Assembly: GCA_963930775.1 (NCBI GenBank)
Contig: OZ005694.1
Span: 1,860,001-1,924,000 of the forward strand
DNA length: 64,000 nucleotides
Reading direction: 5' to 3'
DNA from: Cliona cf. orientalis
Taxonomy: Eukaryota > Porifera > Demospongiae > Clionaida > Clionaidae
The stretch's first letter is position 1. The number at the start of each line of letters is the position of its first letter. The translations under genes were made by a program, and so were the position numbers. This document shows, one piece after another, positions 1,815 through 56,068 of the stretch. A model generated the notes under the pieces. It was given only the letters and a program-made list of their open reading frames with translations. It made no database searches and was not told the DNA's origin.

Positions 1815-1973
1815 ATAGTTATCTACTTCCTGTGATCGACCATAATAATTATACCAAAATTGGCAATGAACTTTGAGGTGGCTAAAAGATATACATATGT
1901 CCGGACAGATTACGGGAAGCACATGTGTGCTATCTGTACTTAAGTCTTATTCTAATTAATTCACGGTTTTTAG

Positions 1974-2452
1974 CCAAAAGCACTGCTGTAAAAGATTTGG
2001 ATATTGCTGTTGAGCTGCAGCTTGCTACTGAAGAGCTATCTGAAGATACTGTAGTATTCAGGTAATATCATTATTGCTTCCAACTTACGACACTAATAAT
2101 TATATTATGACAATAATACAACAGGGTTCGATCAGCCACCATCAATGGAACTACGTATCAGAAGGGGATGGTGCTTATCTATGCCATGGAAGATGACCAG
2201 CCACTATTTGGAAAGATAGTAGACTTAATCATTACTCCAAATCAGGAGTGCCTATTTATTCTTTCAGCTCTAATCACATACCGCAACTACCACTTTCATT
2301 CATTTATGGTTAGTGCAATTGTTCAAAGCTCTGTGCTTGTACATAGGTATCATGGGCTTATTGACCACCATCCACTATGTCTAGCTAGACATTTTGGACC
2401 AAATGGAAGATTATCCATATGTCTTAAGTATCATGTGTTAAGTAGGGAGTGA
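1974..2452 (+). pseudogene. Truncated 3' end of CACTA-like transposase gene (two exons)
   Basis: Exons 1974-2061 and 2125-2452 are separated by a GT-AG intron. They match the last two exons of the gene at 44693-48365 one for one (88 and 328 bp) and encode its C-terminal domain, ending YHVLSRE. No upstream exon is present in 1-1614, so this copy is cut off in or at the assembly gap. The acceptor before 1974 is an intact TTTTTAG, whereas the matching site in the full-length gene reads TTTTTAA. It is either a real truncated duplicate or a scaffolding artefact; it cannot make the full protein. Confidence 0.75.
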
Positions 2453-2957
2453 TGTTCTTCATTGTGTGAATGTATTGATCATTATACGACAATATCTGAA
2501 CATGAGAACACTTGATTATTTAGAAAAAATAATGTATAAAATCAGTGCTGAGCTAGCTACAATAGAGTCATGTAGTACCACTATAAGTGTTTCACAATAA
2601 TTGCTAAAAGCAGCAATACTTCTCTCCCTGGTCTATAGAATGGTTCCCTGCATTGAAGAAATGAACAAACATGAATAACACAACTGTGCATGTATTCAGA
2701 TCAGCTAGTCTTGTACCCCCCCCCCCCCCCCCCCCCCCATATATACACACGCAAGAAAGCCTGATTAAAATGGTCATCCTTTCTCGTCTTTGACATAATT
2801 ATTATGACATTGTATTATTGTGACTCCGCAATCATTAAATTTCAGAAGCATACATTTCCTACTCCCATGGAATGTAATTACATATGATCTGTAGTTTAAT
2901 ACGCATATGCCTGGCACTGTATGGAAGTGGCAATTAGTTGCCAAGTATTATTGCAGC

Positions 2958-3112
2958 ATAGGCGTAGGAACCATTGGGGCTCCGGGGGCTGGTGCCCCCC
3001 TATGTTTTCTGAAAGTTACATAGCTAGGCTCAATTTTGTACACACTGATCATACTCCCCTTGCCTATAGATCTATAGAGCCCCCTTTACCAAACCATCTT
3101 CCTACGCCTCTG
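2958..3112. mobile_element. hAT-like MITE (inverted ends AGGCGTAGGAA)
   Basis: Inverted ends AGGCGTAGGAA at 2960-2970 and TTCCTACGCCT at 3099-3109 bound a G/C-rich tipped element of about 155 bp. A mirror copy lies in the right arm at about 44038-44192, so the insertion predates the arm duplication. No clean 8-bp target duplication was found; the hAT assignment rests only on similarity to other elements with GTAGGAAC ends in this window. Confidence 0.5.
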
Positions 3113-3789
3113 TCAATGCATTCCAGCTGTCCACATTATACCAGATGAGGACACAAAACTTTCTATTAAAAGCACACTCTACTGCACTTGGTGGCAGCAC
3201 ACAGACTTGCACATATCGTTGTCTTTTGTGTGTGTGGAGAGGAGGGGGGCTTACGTTTATTCCACCTATGATCGATTAGTCCACCCGTCGATATGCGATC
3301 ATGATCATCTAGTACAGTGTACATGTCAGTCTCGCAAGCCGCACCCTTCAGCCAGTTACAGTGATGTAAAAAAATGGGTGTGGTCCATTTAACTAATGGA
3401 CACGCCTACTAACATTGTTAACACAGCTCACGGATCGGACCGGACCAGCCCTCGGAGTGCGCTACTAGCCGTCATACCAGCAGACATACAGACCGTGGTT
3501 CCTCTGTCGTTAGTACCCAACTATTGACTCATTTTAATAAGTGGCCCAGAGACGATATGGCACTACTCGGGGCCATAGCTAAAACTTGCACAGGAGCCGC
3601 TTAGAGTCGTAAATATCATCAGAGTCATGAGTAGCTGAGTCGAGTCCACTCCTGAGTCAGAGGGTGCACTGTGACAACCTTAGAAACGGCCAGAAAGTAG
3701 CTAAGACTGATCTTGAAGCAGAAAAGGCCACGTACTTCTGTTTTTGGTAAGAGGCGCAAGCCTGCAAATAGTGATACATAGACAATCGT

Positions 3790-3944
3790 GCCGAGTACGT
3801 GCCAGTTACTACAATTGCTTGTAGTGAAAGGCGTGATGCATAGTGATTATCACTAAATACTGATTTCACTACCTAGTAGTGAACTGAATTATAGTGACAA
3901 TCACTTCATCCTGTAGTGAATATCACTAGCCAGTTTTTACAGTG
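3790..3944. repeat. CACTA-like element end in the left arm
   Basis: The terminus GTTTTTACAGTG (3933-3944) is preceded by a run of short palindromes of the form TAGTGA-n-TCACTA. It is the mirror of the terminus at 43206. Beyond 3944 the two arms remain identical for another 2.8 kb, so the duplication copied the element end together with its flank rather than being a new transposition. Confidence 0.7.
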
Positions 3945-4265
3945 TGCCACCTGGGTGGTGATGGTGGTTTCACACCTAGATGTGTTACCACATAGTGCTG
4001 TAACTTGCCTGGGCATGTTTCAGATCTCTGCACAATTAATACACCACAAAAACACTCTAGCTCTGGCCCTCTGACTCAGTAGATTTCATCTGCACACACC
4101 CATGCTTGCTCTCAGATTAACTCTTGCTTGAAATTTGATTCCCACCATGATCTTGCTCATCCATACAAGAGACAATTTATAGCCCTATGGTCCTCTATAC
4201 ATGTGTGCCCAACTGTCACTGATGACTTACATTCCACTAGTTTGAATATGAGAATAGCATGCTAA

Positions 4266-4312
4266 GTTAGCCAAGAGCGCATATTAAGAACTATGCGCTC
4301 TTGGTTAGGTAT
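4266..4312. repeat. Short hairpin CCAAGAGCGCAT
   Basis: CCAAGAGCGCAT and ATGCGCTCTTGG face each other across about 10 bases. The mirror copy is at about 42838-42884. No associated gene was seen. Confidence 0.55.
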
Positions 4313-5460
4313 AATGTTGTAGAGAGCTACTTTCAGGGGCATGCATGAACCTATAGCTAGTACATGCATATAGGACCTGTGAATGCATCAAGTAAAAAGG
4401 AAACTTTAGGCATGGTATGTATGATTATAATATTATTTGACCAGCTATGAGAAAAGGGACTGTTTGCATGGGATTGTTTTGTTTCTGCATGTATATAGCA
4501 TGTATACAATGTACTATTACAGCTGCAGTCTGCCTCTGTGTTTATGCATGGCTAAAGCTACACTGGTCTGTTACAAGTTCACTCACAACTACATTATAGT
4601 ACTATTAAACTGAAGTAGTAGTTTGTAGTGTGTAGCTTTAAACATTATTATGTACCATGCAATGTATTCTATGTGTAGTGGGTTTACTCTGTGTTTGTGG
4701 TAATAGCTACTCTGGTACAAGCATGCATACTCACTAGAAAGCATGCAAGTTGGATATTGAGACAATAAACAGAAATGGTCCTTTAACAGTAGCTGTTGAT
4801 TTTCTAATAATTGAAACTGTGCTTTAAGTTTCCTTTTTATTTGATACATTCACAGGTGTATACTATAACATGTAACAGGTATAAATGCATGTAGCTACCA
4901 TGCGTATACATTTTTATGCTTAGTGTGGTACTAGGTTGTTTCTACAAACATTATTGCAAACCATTTGTAGCAGCATGGTGGGCCAGTCTGACCTTCAGGA
5001 CATACTACTGGGATGATGTATACACATGCATGAGCTATTATAAGTAACTGGAAAAGGTAGGGGTGTATATACTACTTTCTTAATGAGAGCTCAGCTAGGG
5101 ATCTAAGCAGGTTGTGTCCCTTGTCCAATAATACACAGTGCTGTCATACAAATTAAGGTAAAATAGTGGTACGGGGAAAACTTCCTCAATAGTACCAAAA
5201 ATGTTTAGCAATGACAATGATCTATGAGTATCAATGTACCACACCAAGTCTGATCTGTTGTTGATATTAAAATAATTTTCCTATAGGTTTGTGCTGTGGT
5301 TGGCACCTTTTTCCAACCACAAGCATGCACAGAAAATTACTAGGACCACTGGCATCGTTAAAAATAGTTTCCATAGCAAATTAGCAAAGGTCTATTGTGC
5401 AATGTTGGGCATCAGTTGTTCATATGAAATGATTATCCAATTAAAGCTATGCAAGGGTTA

Positions 5461-5563
5461 GCCTCGTGCACCAGGCCTACCCTCCATACTACACATTGTC
5501 ACGCTATACGAAAAATAGTAGTGTGCATAGTATTATTGAGAGTATAGGCCTGGTACACGAGGC
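5461..5563. mobile_element. Foldback MITE (GCCTCGTGCACCAGGCC)
   Basis: About 17-bp inverted ends (GCCTCGTGCACCAGGCC and GGCCTGGTACACGAGGC) surround about 70 bp. The mirror is at 41587-41689. It resembles the elements at 6318-6390 and about 55740-55825, forming one small foldback family. Confidence 0.6.
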
Positions 5564-6317
5564 TTGCAAATTTAAGGACCATGGTTTTCAATAAGAGCCG
5601 GGACGAGTGATTCCATGCTACAATGTCTTGGAGGCATAATAGTTAATGTTATGCAAGCTGGAGTGTAATAAACAATTAGCTACCTACCAATAGAAGTTCC
5701 TCTAAATCAGTGAAGTGTAACCAACCCAGGGTTAAAGATACTAGTACTGGGAACTCAGATCTTATTAATAGTGTCTGATGGATAGCTAAAATAACCTCTT
5801 TGTAACAGGACAATGTTTATTTTTAGGGGAGTGAGTAGCTTGGAACAGCGCAGTATGTATGTAGATAACACTATTGAGGAGAGAGAAAGGGAGCTGTATT
5901 TGATACTGAATTTGTCTTCTGGGGATGGTAGCTATGTCATATTAATAATTGTGTCATAAGTACACCAAATTACACTCATAGGGGGTGTATGATTACTAGG
6001 TATTGGTGAATTGTGCTCAAAATCTGTCCTATTATGCTATGCTGGCAATGCTAGTAAAACCCTTCATGCTCACCACAATGCCTTATAATTAGCAAAGGTA
6101 CCGCTGCACTGAACAACAAAGGTTGCTGACATGCAGTCAAATATAGAAGGCAATTAGCATATTATGTATTATTATGCTCCAGTACCTTGGGCTCCAATAA
6201 GGATTCATGCAGCACACAAGATGAGAAAGAAATGGTTGAAGGGAAACCTAAATAAATTATAGAATCTATTATGCTAGCATATGCCCATGTGCTAATGGAA
6301 TCTATTATGCCCAAAAT

Positions 6318-6390
6318 TAGCCTCGTCCCCAGGCCTCCACCCATTCTGCGTGCAACACTGAAGCTGGGTGGAGGCTTGGGGACGAGGCTA
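6318..6390. mobile_element. Foldback MITE (TAGCCTCGTCCCCAGGC)
   Basis: Inverted ends of about 25 bp beginning TAGCCTCGTCCCCAGGC form a near-perfect 73-bp hairpin. The mirror is at 40770-40842. A diverged relative with GGGGACGAGGCTA lies near 55805-55822. Confidence 0.65.
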
Positions 6391-6905
6391 TAGCTCCAAA
6401 TTATACCAGCATAATTTGCCAATGCCTAATGGTTACAAAATGAAATAGCTAGCCCAATATACAGGCCAGCTCAGATGCCTTTAATACCCGTATTACTTTG
6501 ATGTGGTCACAAACCACACCCTCCCATTACTTTTCCTTAGGTGAACTCTGAGCCCATCAATGCAAAGTTAGCTAATATCCTTACGATGAGGATACCACTT
6601 GCAAGGGACGGAAGACCATTAATGACTTCTTGATGGTCTCAATATTCTAGTTAATTAATTCTTGATGGTTCATCGGCCTATAATTAGATCTAGGGGTCAT
6701 ATGCCAATTTCACTCTTCCGTGGGGGTGTATCATTCATTAATGGAAAAGCCCATTATAGCATAGCCATCAGAGAAGCGATTTTGAGAAGTCAGATGCCTA
6801 CTAGAGAGTGTCAAGGCTGATGCTCAAGCACAGCCAGCCAAAGAGATCGAGCGGTAAGCACGACTATAATTAAATTACCACACCCACTTAATTAAGAAAA
6901 ACGGA

Positions 6906-25658: not shown

Positions 25659-25788
25659 CACTGTAAAAAATGAAAATGAATATCACTACTTGGTAGTGAC
25701 ATCTGAGGCAAAATGTAGTGACAGTCACTATATTTTGCCTCAGATGTCACTACCATGTAGTGACGTTCACTATTCATTTATTACAGTG
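25659..25788. mobile_element. Palindromic MITE of the CACTG/TAGTGA family, copy 2
   Basis: 130 bp, with tips CACTGTAAAAAATGAA and TTCATTTATTACAGTG. Internally it is nearly a perfect palindrome built from TCACTAC/GTAGTGA units. It shares the CACTGTAA tip with the 10.9-kb element and is a candidate non-autonomous derivative. No clear target duplication (flanks AT and TG differ). Confidence 0.7.
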
Positions 25789-39841: not shown

Positions 39842-40406
39842 TGTTAACGTTGGGCATATATATAGCTAATATTCTATCTTGACTGTTTATATGACAACAG
39901 CCAAGAGATAGCTATAGGTGCTTTTTAAGAAGAGTGAGAGTGCACAGACTCAGTCTGACTAGTGCAACAGAACTCAGTGACTTAAATACAGTAGGTCCAC
40001 CGTGGGTGCATGGTAGGTTAGGGTATCATGATAATTTTCAAACAATGGCATAAGAACCAGGGGAGCTGGGGGGACTTCAGCCCCATGGTTCAAAATATAA
40101 GAGGGGGAGAGGCTTAGCCCCCTCCCCAGTGAAATTCCTCTACCCAATAATATTATGTGCCCTAGTACCGGCATTTAAATTACTGTATTTTGAGTGTGAC
40201 TAGCTGTATGAAAAGGGACCCTACTTGTGCAAGGGTCAACAACATATTATAGACTGACTACACACACAGACATAATTATATTTGTTGTATACTTAAGACT
40301 CATTCCCATAGACTCTGCACATATCAAGACGTTTGAGGACATAGCATGTTTTTGTCACTACCTTGCACCTTTCATGTCTATAGAGATTTGTATTAGAAAG
40401 TTATAT
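39842..40406. other. Upstream region of gene C
   Basis: Includes GTGCACAGACTCAG near 39930, similar in place to the GCACAGACACG upstream of A and B, so possibly a retained promoter element. 40040-40160 is a decayed GGGGCTGGGGGG element shared with 35265-35370. No gene. Confidence 0.45.
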
Positions 40407-43400
40407 TGGGCTTTTCCATTAATGAATGATACACCCCCACGGAAGAGTGAAATTGGCATATGACCCCTAGATCTAATTATAGGCCGATGAACCATCAAGA
40501 ATTAATTAACTAGAATATTGAGACCATCAAGAAGTCATTAATGGTCTTCCGTCCCTTGCAAGTGGTATCCTCATCGTAAGGATATTAGCTAACTTTGCAT
40601 TGATGGGCTCAGAGTTCACCTAAGGAAAAGTAATGGGAGGGTGTGGTTTGTGACCACATCAAAGTAATACGGGTATTAAAGGCATCTGAGCTGGCCTGTA
40701 TATTGGGCTAGCTATTTCATTTTGTAACCATTAGGCATTGGCAAATTATGCTGGTATAATTTGGAGCTATAGCCTCGTCCCCAAGCCTCCACCCAGCTTC
40801 AGTGTTGCACGCAGAATGGGTGGAGGCCTGGGGACGAGGCTAATTTTGGGCATAATAGATTCCATTAGCACATGGGCATATGCTAGCATAATAGATTCTA
40901 TAATTTATTTAGGTTTCCCTTCAACCATTTCTTTGTGCTGCATGAATCCTTATTGGAGCCCAAGGTACTGGAGCATAATAATACATAATATGCTAATTGC
41001 CTTCTATATTTGACTGCATGTCAGCAACCTTTGTTGTTCAGTGCAGCGGTACCTTTGCTAATTATAAGGCATTGTGGTGAGCATGAAGGGTTTTACTAGC
41101 ATTGCCAGCATAGCATAATAGGACAGATTTTGAGCACAATTCACCAATACCTAGTAATCATACACCCCCTATGAGTGTAATTTGGTGTACTTATGACACA
41201 ATTATTAATATGACATAGCTACCATCCCCAGAAGACAAATTCAGTATCAAATACAGCTCCCTTTCTCTCTCCTCAATAGTGTTATCTACATACATACTGC
41301 GCTGTTCCAAGCTACTCACTCCCCTAAAAATAAACATTGTCCTGTTACAAAGAGGTTATTTTAGCTATCCATCAGACACTATTAATAAGATCTGAGTTCC
41401 CAGTACTAGTATCTTTAACCCTGGGTTGGTTACACTTCACTGATTTAGAGGAACTTCTATTGGTAGGTAGCTAATTGTTTATTACACTCCAGCTTGCATA
41501 ACATTAACTATTATGCCTCCAAGACATTGTAGCATGGAATCACTCGTCCCGGCTCTTATTGAAAACCATGGTCCTTAAATTTGCAAGCCTCGTGTACCAG
41601 GCCTATACTCTCAATAATACTATGCACACTACTATTTTTCGTATAGCGTGACAATGTGTAGTATGGAGGGTAGGCCTGGTGCACGAGGCTAACCCTTGCA
41701 TAGCTTTAATTGGATAATCATTTCATATGAACAACTGATGCCCAACATTGCACAATAGACCTTTGCTAATTTGCTATGGAAACTATTTTTAACGATGCCA
41801 GTGGTCCTAGTAATTTTCTGTGCATGCTTGTGGTTGGAAAAAGGTGCCAACCACAGCACAAACCTATAGGAAAATTATTTTAATATCAACAACAGATCAG
41901 ACTTGGTGTGGTACATTGATACTCATAGATCATTGTCATTGCTAAACATTTTTGGTACTATTGAGGAAGTTTTCCCCGTACCACTATTTTACCTTAATTT
42001 GTATGACAGCACTGTGTATTATTGGACAAGGGACACAACCTGCTTAGATCCCTAGCTGAGCTCTCATTAAGAAAGTAGTATATACACCCCTACCTTTTCC
42101 AGTTACTTATAATAGCTCATGCATGTGTATACATCATCCCAGTAGTATGTCCTGAAGGTCAGACTGGCCCACCATGCTGCTACAAATGGTTTGCAATAAT
42201 GTTTGTAGAAACAACCTAGTACCACACTAAGCATAAAAATGTATACGCATGGTAGCTACATGCATTTATACCTGTTACATGTTATAGTATACACCTGTGA
42301 ATGTATCAAATAAAAAGGAAACTTAAAGCACAGTTTCAATTATTAGAAAATCAACAGCTACTGTTAAAGGACCATTTCTGTTTATTGTCTCAATATCCAA
42401 CTTGCATGCTTTCTAGTGAGTATGCATGCTTGTACCAGAGTAGCTATTACCACAAACACAGAGTAAACCCACTACACATAGAATACATTGCATGGTACAT
42501 AATAATGTTTAAAGCTACACACTACAAACTACTACTTCAGTTTAATAGTACTATAATGTAGTTGTGAGTGAACTTGTAACAGACCAGTGTAGCTTTAGCC
42601 ATGCATAAACACAGAGGCAGACTGCAGCTGTAATAGTACATTGTATACATGCTATATACATGCAGAAACAAAACAATCCCATGCAAACAGTCCCTTTTCT
42701 CATAGCTGGTCAAATAATATTATAATCATACATACCATGCCTAAAGTTTCCTTTTTACTTGATGCATTCACAGGTCCTATATGCATGTACTAGCTATAGG
42801 TTCATGCATGCCCCTGAAAGTAGCTCTCTACAACATTATACCTAACCAAGAGCGCATAGTTCTTAATATGCGCTCTTGGCTAACTTAGCATGCTATTCTC
42901 ATATTCAAACTAGTGGAATGTAAGTCATCAGTGACAGTTGGGCACACATGTATAGAGGACCATAGGGCTATAAATTGTCTCTTGTATGGATGAGCAAGAT
43001 CATGGTGGGAATCAAATTTCAAGCAAGAGTTAATCTGAGAGCAAGCATGGGTGTGTGCAGATGAAATCTACTGAGTCAGAGGGCCAGAGCTAGAGTGTTT
43101 TTGTGGTGTATTAATTGTGCAGAGATCTGAAACATGCCCAGGCAAGTTACAGCACTATGTGGTAACACATCTAGGTGTGAAACCACCATCACCACCCAGG
43201 TGGCACACTGTAAAAACTGGCTAGTGATATTCACTACAGGATGAAGTGATTGTCACTATAATTCAGTTCACTACTAGGTAGTGAAATCAGTATTTAGTGA
43301 TAATCACTATGCATCACGCCTTTCACTACAAGCAATTGTAGTAACTGGCACGTACTCGGCACGATTGTCTATGTATCACTATTTGCAGGCTTGCGCCTCT

Positions 43401-45330
43401 TACCAAAAACAGAAGTACGTGGCCTTTTCTGCTTCAAGATCAGTCTTAGCTACTTTCTGGCCGTTTCTAAGGTTGTCACAGTGCACCCTCTGACTCAGGA
43501 GTGGACTCGACTCAGCTACTCATGACTCTGATGATATTTACGACTCTAAGCGGCTCCTGTGCAAGTTTTAGCTATGGCCCCGAGTAGTGCCATATCGTCT
43601 CTGGGCCACTTATTAAAATGAGTCAATAGTTGGGTACTAACGACAGAGGAACCACGGTCTGTATGTCTGCTGGTATGACGGCTAGTAGCGCACTCCGAGG
43701 GCTGGTCCGGTCCGATCCGTGAGCTGTGTTAACAATGTTAGTAGGCGTGTCCATTAGTTAAATGGACCACACCCATTTTTTTACATCACTGTAACTGGCT
43801 GAAGGGTGCGGCTTGCGAGACTGACATGTACACTGTACTAGATGATCATGATCGCATATCGACGGGTGGACTAATCGATCATAGGTGGAATAAACGTAAG
43901 CCCCCCTCCTCTCCACACACACAAAAGACAACGATATGTGCAAGTCTGTGTGCTGCCACCAAGTGCAGTAGAGTGTGCTTTTAATAGAAAGTTTTGTGTC
44001 CTCATCTGGTATAATGTGGACAGCTGGAATGCATTGACAGAGGCGTAGGAAGATGGTTTGGTAAAGGGGGCTCTATAGATCTATAGGCAAGGGGAGTATG
44101 ATCAGTGTGTACAAAATTGAGCCTAGCTATGTAACTTTCAGAAAACATAGGGGGGCACCAGCCCCCGGAGCCCCAATGGTTCCTACGCCTATGCTGCAAT
44201 AATACTTGGCAACTAATTGCCACTTCCATACAGTGCCAGGCATATGCGTATTAAACTACAGATCATATGTAATTACATTCCATGGGAGTAGGAAATGTAT
44301 GCTTCTGAAATTTAATGATTGCGGAGTCACAATAATACAATGTCATAATAATTATGTCAAAGACGAGAAAGGATGACCATTTTAATCAGGCTTTCTTGCG
44401 TGTGTATATATGGGGGGGGGGGGGGGGGGTACAAGACTAGCTGATCTGAATACATGCACAGTTGTGTTATTCATGTTTGTTCATTTCTTCAATGCAGGGA
44501 ACCATTCTATAGACCAGGGAGAGAAGTATTGCTGCTTTTAGCAATTATTGTGAAACACTTATAGTGGTACTACATGACTCTATTGTAGCTAGCTCAGCAC
44601 TGATTTTATACATTATTTTTTCTAAATAATCAAGTGTTCTCATGTTCAGATATTGTCGTATAATGATCAATACATTCACACAATGAAGAACATCACTCCC
44701 TACTTAACACATGATACTTAAGACATATGGATAATCTTCCATTTGGTCCAAAATGTCTAGCTAGACATAGTGGATGGTGGTCAATAAGCCCATGATACCT
44801 ATGTACAAGCACAGAGCTTTGAACAATTGCACTAACCATAAATGAATGAAAGTGGTAGTTGCGGTATGTGATTAGAGCTGAAAGAATAAATAGGCACTCC
44901 TGATTTGGAGTAATGATTAAGTCTACTATCTTTCCAAATAGTGGCTGGTCATCTTCCATGGCATAGATAAGCACCATCCCCTTCTGATACGTAGTTCCAT
45001 TGATGGTGGCTGATCGAACCCTGTTGTATTATTGTCATAATATAATTATTAGTGTCGTAAGTTGGAAGCAATAATGATATTACCTGAATACTACAGTATC
45101 TTCAGATAGCTCTTCAGTAGCAAGCTGCAGCTCAACAGCAATATCCAAATCTTTTACAGCAGTGCTTTTGGTTAAAAACCGTGAATTAATTAGAATAAGA
45201 CTTAAGTACAGATAGCACACATGTGCTTCCCGTAATCTGTCCGGACATATGTATATCTTTTAGCCACCTCAAAGTTCATTGCCAATTTTGGTATAATTAT
45301 TATGGTCGATCACAGGAAGTAGATAACTAT
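40407..45330 (-). repeat. Right arm of the 4.9-kb inverted duplication
   Basis: Reverse-complement partner of 1815-6753. Its inner edge (TGGGCTTTTCCATTAATG) also occurs as a repeat terminus at about 60050-60079. Its outer edge falls inside an intron of the transposase-like gene, which continues without a break to 48365, so this arm is the more complete locus. Confidence 0.93.
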
Positions 45331-48300
45331 TTTTGAATATTAATGCTGCATACGTATCCGTTCTAATTATCGTGCCACTTAAAATAATTATCAAACATGG
45401 GTGGTGCATACCATAGTGTCCTAGGTAAGTGCCCATCGGCTTAGAGCGAAAATGTGGAAAACATAGCTTCCAGTACTAATTAAGCCAGTGGTATACCGAC
45501 TGTAAGTTAGTATATACAGTACCACTCTAATTGGAATTAAATTTTATCAGGAAAAACTAATTAGAATGGATATGGAATGATGAATAATAATTTCCAAGCA
45601 TCAGGAATTAATTAAACAAGTACTTAAGTTGAAGTGGCCTAATAGGTATAATACCACGAACATAACTACGTGAGATAAAGTACAATGGAGCCCTAATTAA
45701 ATTAATTAAGTAGTTTGAATTGTAATCCCCCTCCCTCTCACTTGAATAATACAGACCCTTGAGCTGATACAATGTGAGGTAGGTAGTCAATAGCTATGAA
45801 TTCACATACAGGATAATTTACACAAACCTAACCTCCTGTGTATGATGATTTTGACTTCATGTATGTGGAAGGGTCCATCATCTGGTAGCAAATGTAATTC
45901 TGATGGCGAGTTGCTAGAGTCTTGGGGATATTTATAAAATTCCCAGTGACTCTTGCAAGATGCTTAAAGTAGCTATGCTTCGCCTCATATCTCATACACC
46001 ATAGGCGTACAAGAGGACCACACCTGTACCAATAATAATTTCTATGATAGACTCGAGTAGCTAAAATAATTATTGTGAATTTCATACCATCCGAAAAAAT
46101 AATTAATTTTTACCGTTTCATCCATGATGGCATGTGCACCATGTAGTGCATTTTTGGTGTCAATTGTCTTGATGGATACAGCTCTTTGAATGTTTCTAGG
46201 AAGTCTTCCACTAACATAGCAACATAGTCCGCCCTTTCAGGAGTGGTTACAGGAGCAAACAACTCATCCACAATGTCTAAAAGTAGCAAGAAGTTTTCCC
46301 AGTACTCGTCTCCCTCTGGAACTAGGTCTCCAACCAGCGTAGGGAGGAATCGTCCTAGGCACCACATCTGACAGGCTATACAAACATTATTAAAATTAAA
46401 AGTTAATTATACAATTGCCATACCAGTTTGTTTCAATTCTCCATTTGGTGATATATGATGAGCTGCTATCTCAGAGGGACGGTTCTTGCATTCCACTGAT
46501 CCAAAGCTGAATGCTCCAATGCGTTCATTCAAACGCTTTAGACTAAATAGCCTTTCCTCTGTTACGTAGTGTATCAATAGGTGTTTGATACACAACGATA
46601 AACTACCTGATGGTGCATAAATTTAATAAGTAACTTTTTCAATCATAGTAAAAACTAACCTTCAAGAATATCATGCATTACATCAGGTACTAGTCCACGG
46701 ACGACATGAAAGTATTGACAGTTATTTAGAATAGAATTCCTAGTCACTCCATATGTTGTTGCAATGTGGCTTTGAAGTGAACCTGCTCCTGTGAGTGCCT
46801 CACAGTGCGCAGCATATATTTCCTCTGTACGAAGCTGAACATCTTGCTCTTTGAACTAAATGCCAGAACACATAATACAATAAACATCGCAGCCACAGTA
46901 TATGCACCTTAGTCTGCATTCCTTCCATTGTGACCATGCAGAATTGGCATTTTCGAAAGGCAGACGCAAGATTTTTAAATCCTCCCAGAGGCCATGCAGC
47001 AAGATTATCTGCTGAGACGACAGTCAGGGTTCCACGGAAAGCCACCTTCTTCCCATCAAAGTCAAACACCACACCCTCTTCCTATATAAACTTTATACTA
47101 ATGGACAAAATTAATTAGATTTAATTATACCTTTTCAAGGTCTAAAATTGAGTCCAGAATGGGTTCTAAGACCTCTTCAATTCCATATTTTTTGATAATG
47201 TCGTAAGCCGCTACACACAGAAGATGTATATTTTTGAGAGATGATCGAAGAATGGGATCAAGGTTCCCCAAAGTGTAGTAAAAGAAACCTATTAATAATT
47301 ATCCAGAAGGTTTGATAACTATAATAATTTAATTATTATTATTTTACCAAGTTTATGCTTCTTGGACCCAAGTGGATTACAAAGTTCAAGCTCATCATAG
47401 TACAGCTGAATCTGCAATGCACAAGGATCTTCTTGGAACAGTAAATTATTAGCATAAAGGGTTCCATCACAGTAATCACCCAATAAGCCATCACGTAATG
47501 AATGTGAATTCATCACCTATCAACCATAATAGTGTGCGTATTAAAAATTATACAAAAGATGACATAATCGAGCTTATATACCTGCTCTCTAACAATATCC
47601 ATTCTCAACAGAGCTTGTAAAGACTGGTGCAAAGGTATATCGTAACAGCAGTCTTTGATTTCAATTGACTTCCCATTCTTTTCTCCAAGATAACGGCCAA
47701 GTACACGTTCAACTGGTTCCTATAATATTATTGAAACGTCATTGGAAAATAATTATTAATTAGTACATACCACATAGCTGAAGTGCTCCCTGTAATACTT
47801 CTGTTGTAAATACTGTGTCTCGAGACCATCAAACGGGGTATTGTTGAAAATCGATTTATCGATATTAAGCTCTACATCAGGTGAGGATTGTTTCAAACGT
47901 TCCTGTAAGCCACACATTGCTTCACTCCATAATCCTCTGACACTGAAAACAATTTTATCCACAGATGCTTGTGTAAGCTTACATTCCTCCTTGATTTGGA
48001 GAAGAAATTTGGCTTCACTAAGCTGTAGATTGACACCCGTACCGCTGGACTGCTGATCACTTGTGATTGGATCATTTCGTGTAGTAATATCATCGTCAAT
48101 AGGATTATCCAACATTGTAGAGAGGTTCCGATGGATACTTTCAGTATGAGTGCTCTGCATGGGAATCATCCAGGTGTAAGATATCCCTGTGCTTTCTGTA
48201 TACATGAGATCTGAAGGACTCAAAATTGGTATAGGTTTCAGGACAAGCTTTAATGCCACATCTAATGGATAATCCAGGATCAAAGCGATGAATCGAACCT

Positions 48301-48365
48301 ATATGGCGGAGAACAGAAGCAAAACTTCTGCCAGCAAATTGATCGCATATCGTACACACGAACAT
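44693..48365 (-). CDS. C2H2 zinc-finger CACTA-like transposase gene, 11 exons
   Basis: Exons: 48365-47771, 47719-47582, 47516-47348, 47288-47131, 47081-46908, 46855-46660, 46606-46424, 46375-46114, 46023-45833, 45171-45084, 45020-44693, joined by GT-AG introns in consistent phases. Exon 1 has two zinc fingers: C4-x2-C7-x13-H21-x4-H26 and C36-x4-C41-x12-H54-x4-H59. Later motifs include LELCNPLGSKKHKLG, RGTLTVVSADNLAAWPLGGF followed by CQFC, VPDVMHDILEG, VECKNRP and LWCMRYEAKHSYFK. I know this set from an animal transposon-derived family, and the D-containing motifs resemble Tnp2/Plavaka-type DDE transposases. Two defects: a +1 frame change in exon 1 between the fingers and the next domain (about 48150-48180, no intron signal), and AA instead of AG before exon 10. 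Likely nuclear; it would excise and insert the element. Family name is inference. Confidence 0.7.
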
Positions 48366-48545
48366 TCTGATTCTCTCCTTTCCGAATCTTCCCGCTCAAA
48401 ATGAAGATGCTTTGTTATGCGCATGCGCATTTAGCTCCATTGCAGCTGCAGCTGGCTATCTGGCAGCTGCAAAACTTTTGAAGAGCAAGACAGAGCTAAA
48501 AGCTAGAGAGAAGCTGAAGAGGCGCTAAGCTATCTTTCCGCTAGA
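48366..48545. promoter_or_regulatory. 180-bp bidirectional promoter region with NRF1-type palindrome
   Basis: Lies between the two divergent start codons. TGCGCATGCGCA at 48418-48429 is a perfect palindrome and a canonical NRF1-type site. No TATA box is obvious. CAGCTGCAGCTGGC follows at about 48445. With so little space, the transposase-like and SAM genes are probably co-expressed from here. Confidence 0.6.
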
Positions 48546-51500
48546 ATGGCAGTTGGAGATAAAAGCATTAAAGAGCTTGGGGAATGGTTGGAGAAAGAAG
48601 GATTTGGCGAAAGTGTGGTCGAGATTTTTGCTAGTAAGTCTGATTTCTAAGGCTATATACGAGTCGTAGCGAATGCCTGGGTCTGTAAGGATGATTAACA
48701 AGCATGCGGGTTTTTTTCTCTTTGACAGAAAATGAAATCGATGGGGAGGCCTTCCTTCTGCTCACAAAAGAGGACGTGAAGGATTTGGTAAAAGCTGTGG
48801 GTCCACGAACGAAATTGCTACTGAAGCGGAGTAATCTCCTGAGGCTGAAAACATCGAGCACGCCTTCTCAGGTACAAATTGCTGTATAGGTAGACATTGT
48901 ATCACCATTTATATAGCTAATTTAATATGATAGCTATGTATTAATTTAATATGTATGGCTATAAAAGTAGTGTTTGACTCTGAGCTGAGTTTTAATAGGG
49001 GTGTCTTTATTAATTTTAGTGGAATAGAACGGTGGAATGGAATGATGGAATGGAATGGAATAGTGGAATAATCATGCCCACCGAGTGTGTTTTGTGACAA
49101 CCTTGTGTAGTGGGGTATACCGTAATAATAATAGAGTCACGAGGTTTATTCATGTGCATAATTATGTGCTGCTTGTGGTGCGACTACTATTCAAGTGAGG
49201 CGACCATTTCTTTTAGCACTTCCAGAGGTGTGGCAACTATTTGTGAGGGCAACTAATCAAGAGTGGCATCTGAATGAGCAAATTTTGCATATTATCCTAG
49301 ACAGCTTGCTGGAGCCTTAGTTGACCACTAATCAACAAGCCTTTGATAGGTGATCTGTCCTATCATAGGTGAACACAATATTATGTGATCATCACAGCCC
49401 ACAACAGAGCTATTGACATGATAATAATAATATTATAGCTACTTAATAGGCAGCTGGCCACGTTAGAATCATACATGTACATTTACAGTCTCTATCATGC
49501 ACGTGTCCGTCCGCCTGTAAAAAAACTCATAGCTTTCATTTCTACTGTTACAGGACATCTCTACTGCTCTTGGAGAAACTTCCCCTGAAGATGTTGGCAG
49601 CTCATCTCTTCTGGTATGCTGTAGTTGCTTAGTAGTTGATTTTATAGTAGACCAACGGAGAGTATAATATCATGCCTGCATGGGGGGGGGGGGGGGGGGG
49701 GGGGGGGGGGTGGTGTTTGAATTTGTCATTATAAGATCAATTTAAAGCTTGATCCATACCAGAGTCACATCATTTTTGTGGGTATATATGTGTGAGCCAC
49801 GTAATTAACAGTCACATGTGCTTTTCTTATAACTTCAGCCTCCCACGTGGAGTAAAGCCAGCCCTTCTATCAGTCAGGAGGCTAGCACTGAGGCAACTGT
49901 AGGAGAGGTAAATACAGAGTAAGACCTAATATTTTTGCTCATTGTTCCATATAATTTGAGGTCTTGGACAAATCCCCTGCCTACACAAATGTAAAAGTTT
50001 GTCAAGCTAGCTCTATCTTCTTAATATTATAGCCTGAAGCTGCCAAGGAAGGTACTCTTAGTGGCATGAGTGATTTTGAAGATGACAGCTTTGATCAAGA
50101 ATCTGAGAGAGAAGCGAATCCTGAGCTGAGTGACCAGGACAGTGAGGAAGATGGTGCTAGAGTTGTAAATGTAATTTACCAATGTTAGCTATACATATGA
50201 TAAAATATTATGGCACCATAATCAGATTTTTTTTGCTACTTTGGTTTTGTAGCAATCATCCGTAGCCAAGAAAATAAAATTAGAGCCTGCAGCTGTTATT
50301 AAGCTACCAGTATCTACGACACCAATGTCCAAGAAGAAGCAGGAACCTAGACTACCACGACCGTTCCAACTGCCCGACAATTTTAATCCAACGATCGCTG
50401 ACGCCTTGAAAAAGGAAGCCCTTTCTGGAAAAGTTCGGGGTAAATTCCTGCAAGTAATCGCTGACTCCATATTCCGGTTTAAGAGTTATCCAACAGAAGA
50501 CGAATATACACATGTCACTCAACAAATGGTGAAGAAATGGCCTTTCCTCAGCAACGGAGGCAATTATGTAAGTAGTGTGCTATAGTAAGATGTTGGTGGT
50601 GGTGGGGGGGGGGGGGGGGGGGGAGAGACACATCTAACAGCTAGAGGATGATTTGGCAACCATAATTTCATTATGCTAAGCAATACTACATGGGACCAGT
50701 AGATTGTACTGAGCTTAAAGGGATAATTACTTAAAGTATTGTGTATGGGGGAGGGGGCAGAGAACAAACTTGGCACTTTCATATAACTATTCCTGTCTGA
50801 ACTTTATGCCAATGTTTCTAGGGTTATCTTGTGGTTGGTTTGAAGGAAAAAATTGCATACAAACGAAAACCGGATGACTGCAAAAGAGGCAAGAAGAGTG
50901 AAAAGCCATATAAAGTGAAGAAACCTCAGATGCCTGCTGCGCCGGCCGCTCCCCTTCCTGGTATTGGAGAGGATGAAGCTTCTCATAAAAGGCACGTCAC
51001 CCTACTCAAGGCTGAATGCAAGAAAGCCAATCCGAACAAGTATACGTACCAAGATCTCATGAAGCGAACATTTTCATTTCGTCGCCAAATGCTCCTTGAG
51101 AATCCTATCTCTGTTGAACAGCTGATGGCTGACTATCCAGCAATGAAATTTCCAGATGAGGTAATACATTAACTCTTTCATTCTAGGCACATTTTTATGC
51201 ACAAAATACTTCTTCATTATTAAGATTGTTCGTGAGTTTGACAGAATCAATGAGGCTGCTGTGAGCAAATCAATTCTTCAGACGTGGGAGACTCTTGTTC
51301 CGACTATCCTGGAATTGGCTGCAAATGAAAGTTGTTCTGCCATTAATAATATGATAGAGGGAGCTGACCATTTTTCCGAAGGTAGATATGCCTGCACTTG
51401 TGTTCACAGCGTAACTCTATAATATTGTAAACCGTAGATCTGTTGTGTGTGTGTGTGTGTGTGTGTGATAAGATACATTGATACAATTGCAGAGTACAAA

Positions 51501-53652
51501 AGTATTGTGGCCATCAGCGTTCTCTACTATATGATACCTGATGTGAGGACATCACAAGACCACACAAGGATAATTACTTTCGTTGAGGTGCGTTAACTTA
51601 ATTCTTTTAATGTTAGTTTCTCATCCTCTACTTTTGGGATACTAATTTTTATTAAATTAGCATGGCCACACCTACAGACTAAATGAGATCGGTGTATTTT
51701 CATGTTCATCTTCCCATTACATAACTACTTTACCAAGAACCAGGATGAGAAACTAATTTTATGGCTACCTAAAAGAACTATCATAATGTGGGTGCACTTA
51801 AATAAGATTTGTGTCGTTGAATCAGGTTCACCACCCGTGTGTGAAATGTTAGCTAATTCAATGTTTGGGTGGGGGAGCTTGGTACACCTAAACCCGCTCT
51901 ATTTCGTATCATACACAAGAGCCTAAGCACTCGGCCACCACCGTTGTCACTGCTAGTAGACGTTACTTTATAGATAAACTCTACACAATCCAGCCCCTCC
52001 TATCCGTACAATCAACCTATAGACAAACCCTAGAGACTAACCTTGCTAACCATTTGCAACCCATCCCCAGACCTCCTAGCCCCTCCCACACTAACCCTGC
52101 TAACCATTCGCATCCCAGCCCCTCCCATCCGTATCATCCAGCGATCGCGGCAGCATACATGTATGTACCGGCGTATCATGATCGGGTTGCGATCGCATTT
52201 GTGTCCTTACATGGTACCAAGAGTATATAATAGAGAGGGAGGGAGAGTATCCTACTTCACTATGGGCCTGTGTTACAACACTTTATGGGGGTCATGACCT
52301 TTATAATGATATTCACAGGCTTGAGGCCCCAGTTCTAGCCGTTTGTGGGCATGTATAGCTGTACTGTAGAGCACTAATGCAGCTGCTATGTGATGTTGTA
52401 GGACAATCTGTGAAACCACTTTGTATGTGAAAAGGTCATGACCCCCGTAAAGGGTTGTAACACAGGCCCATAGTTAAGTAGGATACTCTCCCTCCTTCTC
52501 TATTATATACTCTTGATGGTACGATCACAAACAAAGCACTGTCTCCACATCGAAGCACACGATTGGCCTAAAACTTGAACATGGGTTAGCTCTGTAGTTG
52601 GACCTATCAAACACACATTAAACTCGATTTTTATATGGAGGATTTTCCCAAATCTGGTCATATTATCATTAAATTTTGCTGTATGTGGAGTCTGCCATAC
52701 CCAAATGATAATTGTCATGACAATCATGTGCATACCGTATAGCGGGAAATTTTCGTTGGTGCTAATTTTCGTATGATTGACCAAAACACCCTTAGAATAA
52801 ATTTTCGTACTTTTTTAATTTCATATGCTTGCTGCGGGAGATTGTGCGCATGCGCAGCTGATAGCACTCACACTTACGTGCAGTATAATATGGTTAAACG
52901 CTAGCATCACTGGCTTCCTTGCATGATCATAGCTAATCGATGCTGATAGCGATCCACTGGGATCAGAAAGGTCACTCCGTTTCGACGCCTTGGCAAAGAA
53001 CCGATAAAGAAACATCGTTGAGTGAGCTAGCCTTGCATTTAACACCTGCTGCTAGCGACCGCATGTGGCCGTGGTAGGCGTATAGGTCGCGCATAAAAGA
53101 AAAAAATCGCACGTTCAAATTTTCTCGGTTTTTATTTTCGTATAAGGGATGGAGCATACGAAATATACAAAAATTAGCACCATACAAAAATTTTCCGCTA
53201 TACGGTATGACATGCTACATACAGTGTGTCCCCAGACAAAGTGCTCAGTGTGTCGCTATATACCAGACCCTCCTTGAGGGTGGGATCTGGGGATGAGACT
53301 AGAATGTGGCTACTAACTTGAATTATATTTTTCCTATTAGGATACTGCAGATGTGAAGGCAGTAGCCAGAGCTGTACCATCTCCTCAGCCCTGCATTGTG
53401 GCACGTGCAAGTGATGGCAATGTTAAAGATGCCTTCTTGGTTATTGAACGCTCACCATTGATCAAGAAAATTTCAGTTGTCAAAAGCTGTTTGTTGGTAC
53501 TGTTTTCGTCATACTATGCCTTTAATGTGCATTATCCACATGGCTGTTGCAACTTCTTTACTTTGCTGGAGGTACTTTTCTTAAACAGGAAAGTTCCTCC
53601 AAGGAAGCCAAGGCTTTCTGCACTAGCATCACAGCTACAGGCTCTGTTGTAA
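48546..53652 (+). CDS. SAM-domain protein (SAMD3-like), 10 exons, 571 aa
   Basis: Exons: 48546-48633, 48729-48871, 49554-49613, 49839-49907, 50033-50170, 50253-50567, 50822-51160, 51225-51381, 51493-51587, 53341-53652. All introns are GT-AG and phases agree, giving 572 codons with the stop. Residues 1 to about 70 form a SAM domain (ELGEWLEKEGFGESVVEIF, NEIDGEAFLLLTKEDVKDL, GPRTKLL). An acidic linker (SDFEDDSFDQESE) and a basic patch with VAKKIKLEP, a possible nuclear signal, follow. The C-terminal half carries LPDNFNPTIADAL, KWPFLSNGGNYGYLV and YPAMKFPDE, as in the SAMD3-like proteins expanded in fish and cnidarians. It starts 181 bp from the oppositely oriented transposase-like gene and lies inside the same CACTG-ended element, so it may be the accessory protein. 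No frame lesion was seen. Intron 9 (1.75 kb) is swollen with repeats. Confidence 0.8.
49019..49072. repeat. TGGAA microsatellite
   Basis: Irregular GGAAT/TGGAA repeats in intron 2 of the SAM gene; a scattered relative (CCATTCCATCATTCC) lies near 63275. Confidence 0.6.
49681..49710 (+). repeat. Poly-G tract
   Basis: An uninterrupted run of about 29 G in intron 3 of the SAM gene. A second run of about 20 G lies at 50603-50622 in intron 6. Both could form G-quadruplex structures. Confidence 0.8.
51436..51469. repeat. TG microsatellite
   Basis: About 13 GT dinucleotides in intron 8 of the SAM gene. Confidence 0.85.
51860..52140 (-). repeat. SINE-like repeat copy in SAM intron 9
   Basis: The minus strand holds GGTGGCCGAGTGCTTAGGCTC (A-box like). 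The adjacent AGACAAACCCTAGAGACTAACC and CCATCCCCAGACC blocks match 20935-21000 next to the tRNA-like sequence at 20830-20892. The AACCCTGCTAACCATT block is partly duplicated here. Confidence 0.5.
52213..52522. mobile_element. Foldback element with about 95-bp arms
   Basis: GTACCAAGAGTATATAATAG at the left is inverted at 52503-52522. The arms continue through GGGAGAGTATCCTACTTCACT and GGGCCTGTGTTACAACACTT with few mismatches. About 110 bp separates them. Lies in SAM intron 9. Confidence 0.75.
52735..53205. mobile_element. TA-flanked MITE (CCGTATAGCGG ends)
   Basis: CCGTATAGCGGGAAATTTTC and the inverted AAAATTTTCCGCTATACGG tips continue for about 40 bp, with TA on both sides (52733-52734, 53206-53207). 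471 bp, no transposase. The third recognisable insertion in SAM intron 9. Confidence 0.75.
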
Positions 53653-54148
53653 CTGGCCTAATCAGCCCTGGTATCATATTATAATATAGTATTATTATAG
53701 AGTTAGGCTTCATTCTTATACATGTAGACTACATGGGCTATATACAGTATATTACGCCTTTGGCCTTGGCTTCAGCATACATATTATTATAATTGCTGTT
53801 TATTATTATTAATATTATTTCTGGAAGAGATTTTGACTCAAGTTACCTTTAGGCTACACACCTTTAGTTATTATTTGTTATAATTTATGTTGCTCTTCGT
53901 CATTGTGATGATAATATTATTGTAATAATTATTGCTATTGTCATAGTAATTCAGCTACATGCATGGTGCATGGTCGAAGTGCACAATCAGCAATGCATGC
54001 TCAATACAACTTGCGTAGTGCCATTCACTGACTATTGTAGTAGTGATAAATCAATGTAGTGAACATCACCACAGCAAAATCAGTGATATCTGTGGCAGGT
54101 ATTTCACTACTAATTTGTAGTGAAATTCACTATTTTGTTTTTACAGTG

Positions 54149-56068
54149 CAGTAGTAGTGGTTACCCCACTAGACTGCTTGTGGGTGTCTGCTGATTTTCA
54201 GTACTAGGCTCACTAGACTTTTGGGCATGGTATAGCCACCTAAGCATGCATACCCTAATCATGCATACCCTTACCACGCGTACCCTAATCACGCATACCC
54301 TAATCACATCACCTCTCACATATTCCAATTATCTCTCATATACATACCTTAAATTATAATCACTTCATAATGTCATACACACACAAGCACTGCATGGTAT
54401 GCACATACATATACACATATCATCATTTCATGTCTTTAACACATACCCCATGCAACCACTCACATCTCTCATACACATACCCATCTCACTGTGTGTCATA
54501 TACTGCCCTATTACTTCATTTCTCATACCCTAACTACACATACCCTAATCACATCACCTCTCACATATTCCAATCCCTGTCACTTTATCTCTTATATACA
54601 TACCTTAATCACTTATGTTGTCATGCACATACCCCAATCACAAGCACTGGTACACACATACACCATACATATTATCCTAATCATTTCATGTCTTAATTAA
54701 GCACATACCCCATGCAACCATTCGACACATACCTGGCTATCTCACTACTGTGTGTCATATTATACTACAATTGTGTATAGCCCTAGCTATTACTTCATTT
54801 CTCATACATATACCCTAATTACTTCATCTCTTATACATATGTCCTAATCATTTCATCCCCACTCATCTCTCATATATACTGGCCTATTACTTCATTTCTC
54901 ATACACATACCCTAATCATTTATAATTATGTCCTGATCATTTCATCCCTCTCATACAAAAATGCATCTCATTCCCACCCACTGATCACTTCATCATAATA
55001 TTATGCATACTCCCATCACATTACCCATTTCATCTTCTATGCACCCTAATCATAATATGATGTACTAAGTCACTATAGTAAACTCCCATAGAGAAGTAGG
55101 CAATAATTCTTGTATCTAACAGTGCAAGTGTAATCGCTCACTGATTAGATATACAGTGTTGATTTAATTACAGTTTGCACCTAATCACATGCTGATTGGG
55201 TAAAATCACCCTTCGTTTTGTTAGTACAGCTGCAAGGTCAAGAAGAAAGCCACTAAACCTGCTGATGCTACACAAGCTCTACAAAGCATCCCTTCACCTT
55301 GTGGGGGTAGCCAGGCTTCTGTTTACTTAGTGGACCTATACTACTGCTGGTGGTCTATTAGTCAAGTAGATAGGCGTCCTTACATAAGCGCTTCATATGA
55401 TTAGTAATTGATCACATCCTTCTGAGTGCAATTTGGAAATAATCACACTCGTAACTGCCAGTTGTAAAGCAATTTAAATTGCACTTGGCTTCATCTCATG
55501 CAATTTCAAGCTTTCCAACTGGCAGTTACTCGTGTGATTATTTCCAAATTGCACTCAGAAGGATGTGATTAATCATTCTAATCACTTCATCTCATCGATC
55601 CCTCCTATACATACCCAATCACATACACTTTGAGCTGCCCACTTTAGTCCTTTACTTATTCCCCTCAACATGTGCCCATAATAATTCTTTGATAGCCCCG
55701 TAAGACATAGATATTGTAGTATATTTCCCCTAGGGTATATACCTCATTCCCAGGCCCTATATTCCCAGCTATTCAATGTTGCATGCAAAGACAACATCAG
55801 GGAGACTGGGGACGAGGCTACCCTAGGATAAGTTGTTAAGTGGCCTACGCATGGCCTGGAAACATGAAAAGGAATAATAGACTTACAAGAGGGAAATAAA
55901 CATAGTAGTAATGAGCTAGGGATGTGGCCATGGGATTGTTGAATCCACTGTCATATTAATTAAAGTGAGCTAACTGGTTTCCTATAACTTCTAGGAGTCT
56001 CTCTATAGTTCTCTCCCTCACCCCCCCCCCCCCAACCCCCCTTCTGAATGTGTGTTAAATTGCCATAT
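54149..56068. other. Gene-free region with degenerate CATACCCTAATCAC repeats
   Basis: 54230-55080 is a pyrimidine/A-rich, irregular repeat of about 13-15 bases around CATACCCTAATCAC and TCATTTCTCATACA. It is not a clean tandem array. A foldback follows at 55400-55577 and a decayed GGGGACGAGGCTA hairpin at about 55740-55825. Frames through it look like low-complexity translation, not genes. Confidence 0.55.
55400..55577. mobile_element. Foldback element with about 55-bp near-perfect arms
   Basis: ATCACATCCTTCTGAGTGCA (55411 onward) is inverted at the right (TGCACTCAGAAGGATGTGAT). The match runs inward through AACTGCCAGTT. About 40 bp separates the arms. Confidence 0.78.

Follow-up and report, generated by a model that had tools for sequence, protein, structure and literature searches.

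What kind of unit holds two divergent genes between perfect inverted CACTG tips, and is its second gene a working part of it? This question is raised by positions 43206 to 54148 of a 64,000-nucleotide stretch of the sponge Cliona cf. orientalis (OZ005694.1, here C6:1860001-1924000, and hereafter the window), where a transposase-like gene and a gene for a SAM-domain protein lie head-to-head. Plant CACTA transposons need two proteins, and the conserved second protein of the animal ones is unnamed in the literature consulted. It is near certain that the window holds a two-gene CACTA-type element, and the explanation that I consider likely overall is a cut-and-paste transposon of the CMCT clade whose SAM protein would be needed as a second factor.

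Element ends and empty sites

The element is bounded by perfect 12-bp terminal inverted repeats (CACTGTAAAAAC), whose arms reach 33 nt at 82%. Its ends read CA..TG within these repeats, as in the CMCT clade, and a flanking 2-bp target duplication (CA) falls within the 2 to 5 bp of that clade. In contrast, plant En/Spm elements have CACTA tips and plant CACTA elements a 3-bp target duplication, the length required for EnSpm in the narrow sense, while the tips here read CACTG.

To locate empty sites, the flanks were joined after removal of the element and of one CA copy, and the resulting 300 letters were matched to the genome (217 Mb in 149 contigs). There were 39 matches, of which 32 crossed the junction and 16 extended across all 300 letters, the best being uninterrupted at 100% over 300 bp (C1:11550275-11550574); three of the seven that did not cross were the locus itself and its duplicate. 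The host site is a dispersed repeat that is also present in uninterrupted copies, and the ends and the 2-bp CA duplication therefore stand as read.

Inside the tips, the outer 130 and 160 bp of the element (290 bp) contained 16 occurrences of AGTGA/TCACT; when these tips were resampled 2,000 times under a Markov model, the mean was 1.23 and the highest count 6. The palindrome TAGTGAnnnTCACTA was perfect three times (43222, 43295, and 54118). Repeated motifs inside each tip are again a trait of the CMCT clade. A pattern of the tip and first palindrome was found at 37 genome sites and its reversed control at 0, and several of these sites pair into shorter elements of 2,703-2,875 bp and 200 bp, which are non-autonomous relatives; one relative of 2,852 bp on C5 resembles the window element only in its tips, save one 25-nt match. 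A 2-bp duplication (TG, CA, or TA) was exact in 9 of the 11 two-tipped elements with flanks examined, comprising the window element with six relatives (7/7) and two copies of a second family described below (2/2). An earlier, sequence-only reading had proposed this exact span, perfect 12-bp tips, and arrays of TAGTGA/TCACTA inside them; all of these were borne out, and the ends, when checked for copies with other boundaries, agreed with those of relatives and empty sites.

Two divergent genes

That reading had also described two head-to-head multi-exon genes, and mapping gave ten exons for each, with start codons that face away from each other 180 bp apart (Table 1). The partner lies on the strand opposite the transposase and is a separate gene, as opposed to a splice product of one transcription unit as in En/Spm.

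The mapped exons of the minus-strand gene translate to one open frame. C2H2-like zinc-finger motifs were seen by eye at its N-terminus, and motif and spacing point to the residues D269, D362, C382xxC385, H598xxxH602, and E622. The C(2)C and H(3-4)H motifs, whose roles were assigned by eye, would lie between the second D and the E, as in CMCT elements, and judged by this spacing the gene is a DDE transposase of CMC/Transib type. Scanning relatives with Pfam placed the paralogue L016 above the cut-off for Tnp2 / Transposase_21 (PF02992; 29.7 vs 28.6), while among four other relatives three stayed below the Tnp2 cut-off and one matched only DUF4218, below its cut-off. A match to a non-CACTA family was looked for as well, and the family found was Tnp2, in L016; together with the motif spacing, the CA..TG tips, and the 2-bp duplications this upholds the assignment to the CACTA superfamily.

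The plus-strand partner is a SAM-domain protein, as had been claimed: SAM_1 (PF00536) matched residues 10-61 at 38.3 bits (cut-off 23) in a 547-aa version. That version, an 11-exon model, was replaced after comparison with a relative, which joined the last two exons and set the stop at 53652. Nothing outside SAM rose above cut-off in Pfam (547-aa version) or NCBIfam (571 aa), and among solved structures the partner matched SAM domains, plus Utp6 at an expectation value (E) of 0.99.

As a separate observation, intron 9 of the partner (51588-53340) contains two inverted-repeat structures, at 52218-52515 and 52725-53214, which resemble nested inserts.

Recurrence of the gene pair

The genome was searched with two transposase queries (98 and 84 rows) and two partner queries (50 and 54 rows), and all rows within the E-value limits set were clustered using chosen gaps of 12 kb for the partner and 5 kb for the transposase, a likewise chosen pairing limit of 20 kb, and separate counting of the recent copies on C1, C7, and C5. 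This resulted in at least 67 transposase and at least 41 partner loci, which are lower bounds because the search scores best candidates only. The nearest transposase within 20 kb was head-to-head at 25 of the 41 partner loci listed and tail-to-tail at none, and a randomly placed point would have a transposase locus within 20 kb in 1.3% of cases (4.6% on contig C1). A single transposase at C1:32.38 Mb is shared by two partner rows in this count, of which the first is head-to-head and the other of the same strand. An earlier count on part of the rows (31 partner loci: 19 head-to-head, 2 on the same strand, and 10 with none) is superseded by these numbers. Transposase and partner starts lie 285 bp apart in a C1 relative, and 177 bp separate the transposase start from the first partner exon on C12, the latter being a weak match (E 0.009).

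Two further observations concern individual partner loci. An integrase-like frame (L043:1560-2726, by eye) adjoins the C12 partner exons on the same strand and may be a nested element within an intron that has expanded, and one partner locus has two sets of SAM-like exons in tandem (L092:43-868).

A second family with both genes

A second family of 8,431 bp, with ends delimited by comparing its C1 and C7 copies, has CACTG tips (CACTGCAAAAA.. and ..TTTTTTGCAGTG) and carries a partner, a transposase, and a frame with a PARP domain, both genes being strongly diverged from those of the window. In the parts of its C1 and C7 copies that were compared, which exclude the middle of the latter, 4,693 columns agree at 99.9% and 1,304 at 100%. 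The two copies have duplications of TG and TA; a third copy, at about 97%, is located on C5. A joined-flank test of the C1 copy likewise found repeats without an interruption, with a top match of 92% along the full 240 letters. This family carries both genes, and therefore the pair moves as a unit.

The second-family transposase has 37-40% identity to that of the window, and the partners match with an E of 6.8e-21 over 396 columns at 25% identity; their SAM parts, compared separately, gave 36% (E 1e-4), and the second-family partner of the C1 relative passes SAM_1 in its own right (24.9 vs 23). Since the same gene pair is found in such distantly related elements, the partner appears to have belonged to the element for a long time. 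Transposase and partner distances were correlated (r 0.92, a value reached in 3 of 120 permutations) over the five pairs with usable stretches of both proteins, some of the partner comparisons covering only 66-93 positions. Both genes are under purifying selection in this family: between the C1 and C5 copies the ratio of nonsynonymous to synonymous change (dN/dS) was 0.19 in exon 2 of the transposase (p 7e-6), and the partner as a whole gave 0.33 (p 0.015). For the PARP frame it was 0.52, with 3 changes and a p of 0.50.

The PARP catalytic domain lies in a frame downstream of the second-family transposase (36.8 bits vs 26.7), and a PARP frame with 44% identity was found at transposase locus L022, which also has a head-to-head partner. 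It is possibly counter-silencing cargo, and no PARP domain in a CACTA-type DNA transposon was among the matches listed in the literature. The subterminal motif of the second family, GTTAnnnTAAC, differs from TAGTGAnnnTCACTA. Such a difference between families is expected of a diverging end-binding protein, and the binder could be either of the two.

Discussion

How the pair works may be outlined from the analogy to maize Spm/En, where, in the accessible text of PMC2613891, TNPA recognises subterminal repeats and both element proteins are required. The element would have inserted into a dispersed repeat with duplication of CA, and the DDE transposase with its N-terminal zinc-finger motifs would cut and join at the CACTG tips. 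The SAM partner would use its SAM domain to self-associate and would bring the subterminal palindromes of the two ends together in a single complex, either by itself or by way of the transposase, so that by analogy the SAM protein may be doing TnpA's job there. Whether its role is exactly this I regard as evenly poised. The functional link between the two proteins that had been suggested at the outset gains from head-to-head recurrence, co-divergence, and selection, and its binding component is retained here as a proposal.

Several results weigh against this explanation. The tip searches of the genome found no second full-length copy of the window element's own family. No 2-bp duplication was present at C5:3597757, within an AGCT repeat, nor at a 130-bp element at window position 25659. 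The Tnp2 cut-off was reached by L016 but not by the window transposase, whose Pfam matches were DUF4218 (E 0.07) and DUF728 (E 0.19), both below cut-off. Where the first two transposase exons meet, an intron of 47 bp fits and its assignment is uncertain; a frameshift is possible because this intron would remove a stretch that a relative retains, and the window copy may accordingly be dead. A profile of the partner core found no counterpart among solved structures, and exon 6 alone was predicted at low confidence as three helices (mean predicted local distance difference test, pLDDT, 62; predicted template modelling score, pTM, 0.33). Thirteen of the 41 partner loci had no listed transposase within 20 kb, and at three it had the same orientation as the partner. 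In the comparison of the C1 copy with that on C5, dN/dS was 0.28 for transposase exon 1 (p 0.21) and 0.49 for one partner exon alone (p 0.20), and the last partner exon of the C5 copy has a 2-nt gap relative to C1.

The main rival explanation accepts the pair as integral and places the SAM protein away from the ends, as a regulator or counter-silencing factor whose SAM domain contacts host chromatin proteins. The partner matched SAM structures of the chromatin proteins L3MBTL3, Sfmbt, and polyhomeotic (weakly, E 0.006 to 0.4), a PARP-domain frame was added in related elements, and fungal transposons carry TET/JBP genes proposed to counter silencing (accessible text of PMC12730594). The zinc-finger motifs of the transposase itself may, moreover, suffice for end binding. 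However, the SAM structure matches are generic, and the pairing dates back as far as the divergence of the transposases in this genome, with the partner under purifying selection, which a core function fits at least equally well; a regulatory role is a serious possibility, if not the outcome I would expect. I disfavour as very improbable that the partner goes back to a single capture of a host gene and travels as a passenger. Capture of host genes by transposable elements is common, and partner loci without a listed transposase would suit such an origin, but it sits poorly with 25 head-to-head pairs, partners down to 25% identity, correlated divergence, and selection between recent copies. Two ordinary host genes sharing a promoter between coincidental tips, which the multi-exon and mostly open structure of both genes might suggest, can be rejected as having next to no chance because empty sites sit at the exact ends, and tipped relatives with 2-bp duplications and Tnp2 in a relative also speak against it.

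Returning to the two-protein CACTA transposon, its closest known counterparts differ in layout. Plant En/Spm, Tam1, and soybean Tgmt* share a Tnp2-type transposase, CAC.. tips, short repeats inside the tips, and two proteins (accessible text of PMC2613891). TnpA of En/Spm arises by alternative splicing of the same transcription unit, whereas the window partner is a separate divergent SAM gene. The likeness to En/Spm that had first been drawn holds for the CACTA type and the two proteins, and this is not a classic En/Spm because it has CACTG tips, a 2-bp duplication, and a second protein that comes from a separate divergent gene and is not a splice form. SmTRC1 of Schistosoma, an animal TRC element, has Transposase_21, introns, and 2-bp direct repeats at 7 of 14 copies, but CCC tips, a length of about 4.7 kb, and extra proteins made by splicing, and the accessible text of PMC1636069 does not mention a SAM partner. 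The CMCT elements in the accessible text of PMC12730594 have the C(2)C and H(3-4)H motifs, mostly CA..TG ends, and 2 to 5 bp duplications; EnSpm is defined there by CAC..GTG with 3 bp, compared with 2 bp in the window, and a head-to-head SAM partner is unmentioned. Nuwa, described in the same text among Harbinger relatives, also combines a transposase with a second DNA-binding protein, but belongs to another superfamily and has a Myb/SANT partner in place of SAM.

The head-to-head SAM-partner layout, which the sequence-only reading did not know as a described CACTA organisation, was likewise absent from the literature searched, including the accessible parts of PMC1636069, PMC12730594, PMC2613891, and PMC2884549; Repbase and most subscription journals lay outside this search. 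The window element therefore appears to be a CACTA-type element (CMCT) whose two-gene layout is new to that literature, and prior notice elsewhere is possible. A recurring, selected, and co-moving partner makes it directly testable whether animal CACTA elements have a conserved second protein, and would explain some SAM-domain genes that are perhaps annotated as host genes. A wider picture, which I find unlikely in its entirety, would be a deep animal CACTA branch that is an obligate two-protein machine, with a SAM end-gathering factor independent of plant TnpA and a sub-branch that adds PARP; SAMD3-like animal genes, which may resemble the partner, could then be tamed descendants of it.

Feature coordinates and further copies

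Table 1. Element features by window position, and PARP frames by position within related loci.
Feature	Position	Strand	Details
Whole transposon	43206..54148		10,943 bp; tips and empty sites
CA target duplication, left copy	43204..43205		flank reading and empty sites
CA target duplication, right copy	54149..54150		flank reading and empty sites
Left 12-bp terminal inverted repeat	43206..43217	+	CACTGTAAAAAC
Right 12-bp terminal inverted repeat	54137..54148	-	complement of CACTGTAAAAAC
Left array, TAGTGA/TCACTA motifs	43222..43381		motif count
Right array, TAGTGA/TCACTA motifs	54041..54132		motif count
Transposase gene	45833..48365	-	10 mapped exons, 672 aa; first junction uncertain
Transposase exons 1-5	48365-48204, 48154-47771, 47719-47582, 47516-47348, 47288-47131	-	
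Transposase exons 6-10	47081-46908, 46855-46660, 46606-46424, 46375-46114, 46023-45833	-	
Likely further C-terminal transposase exons	44694..45163	-	not firmly spliced; frames, similar C-terminus in relative by eye
Gap between both starts	48366..48545		180 bp; presumed shared promoter
SAM-domain partner gene	48546..53652	+	10 exons, 571 aa, stop included
Partner exons 1-5	48546-48633, 48729-48871, 49554-49613, 49839-49907, 50033-50170	+	
Partner exons 6-10	50253-50567, 50822-51160, 51225-51381, 51493-51587, 53341-53652	+	last exon with stop
PARP frames	L016:3377-4123; L022:3542-4060		also L017, L018

A perfect second left tip within window 3645-3944 was rejected as a second element, as it is part of an inverted duplication that includes the flank. 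This duplication of 4.9 kb (window 1815-6758 vs 40402-45330, 99.66%) takes in the left tip and 2.1 kb of the element, and may be a recent rearrangement or an assembly effect. Scans of viral contigs with the transposase and the partner core as queries gave no confirmed relative. The 130-bp miniature element (window 25659-25788) has CACTG tips and TAGTGA/TCACTA motifs, with no matching 2-bp duplication, and at L012:1583-1880 two right tips lie 286 bp from each other and share their flank sequence, forming tandem element ends. The unpaired partner loci are C6:439154, C6:861225, C6:988349, C6:1171587, and nine others, which are possibly decayed copies, missed partners, or tamed genes.

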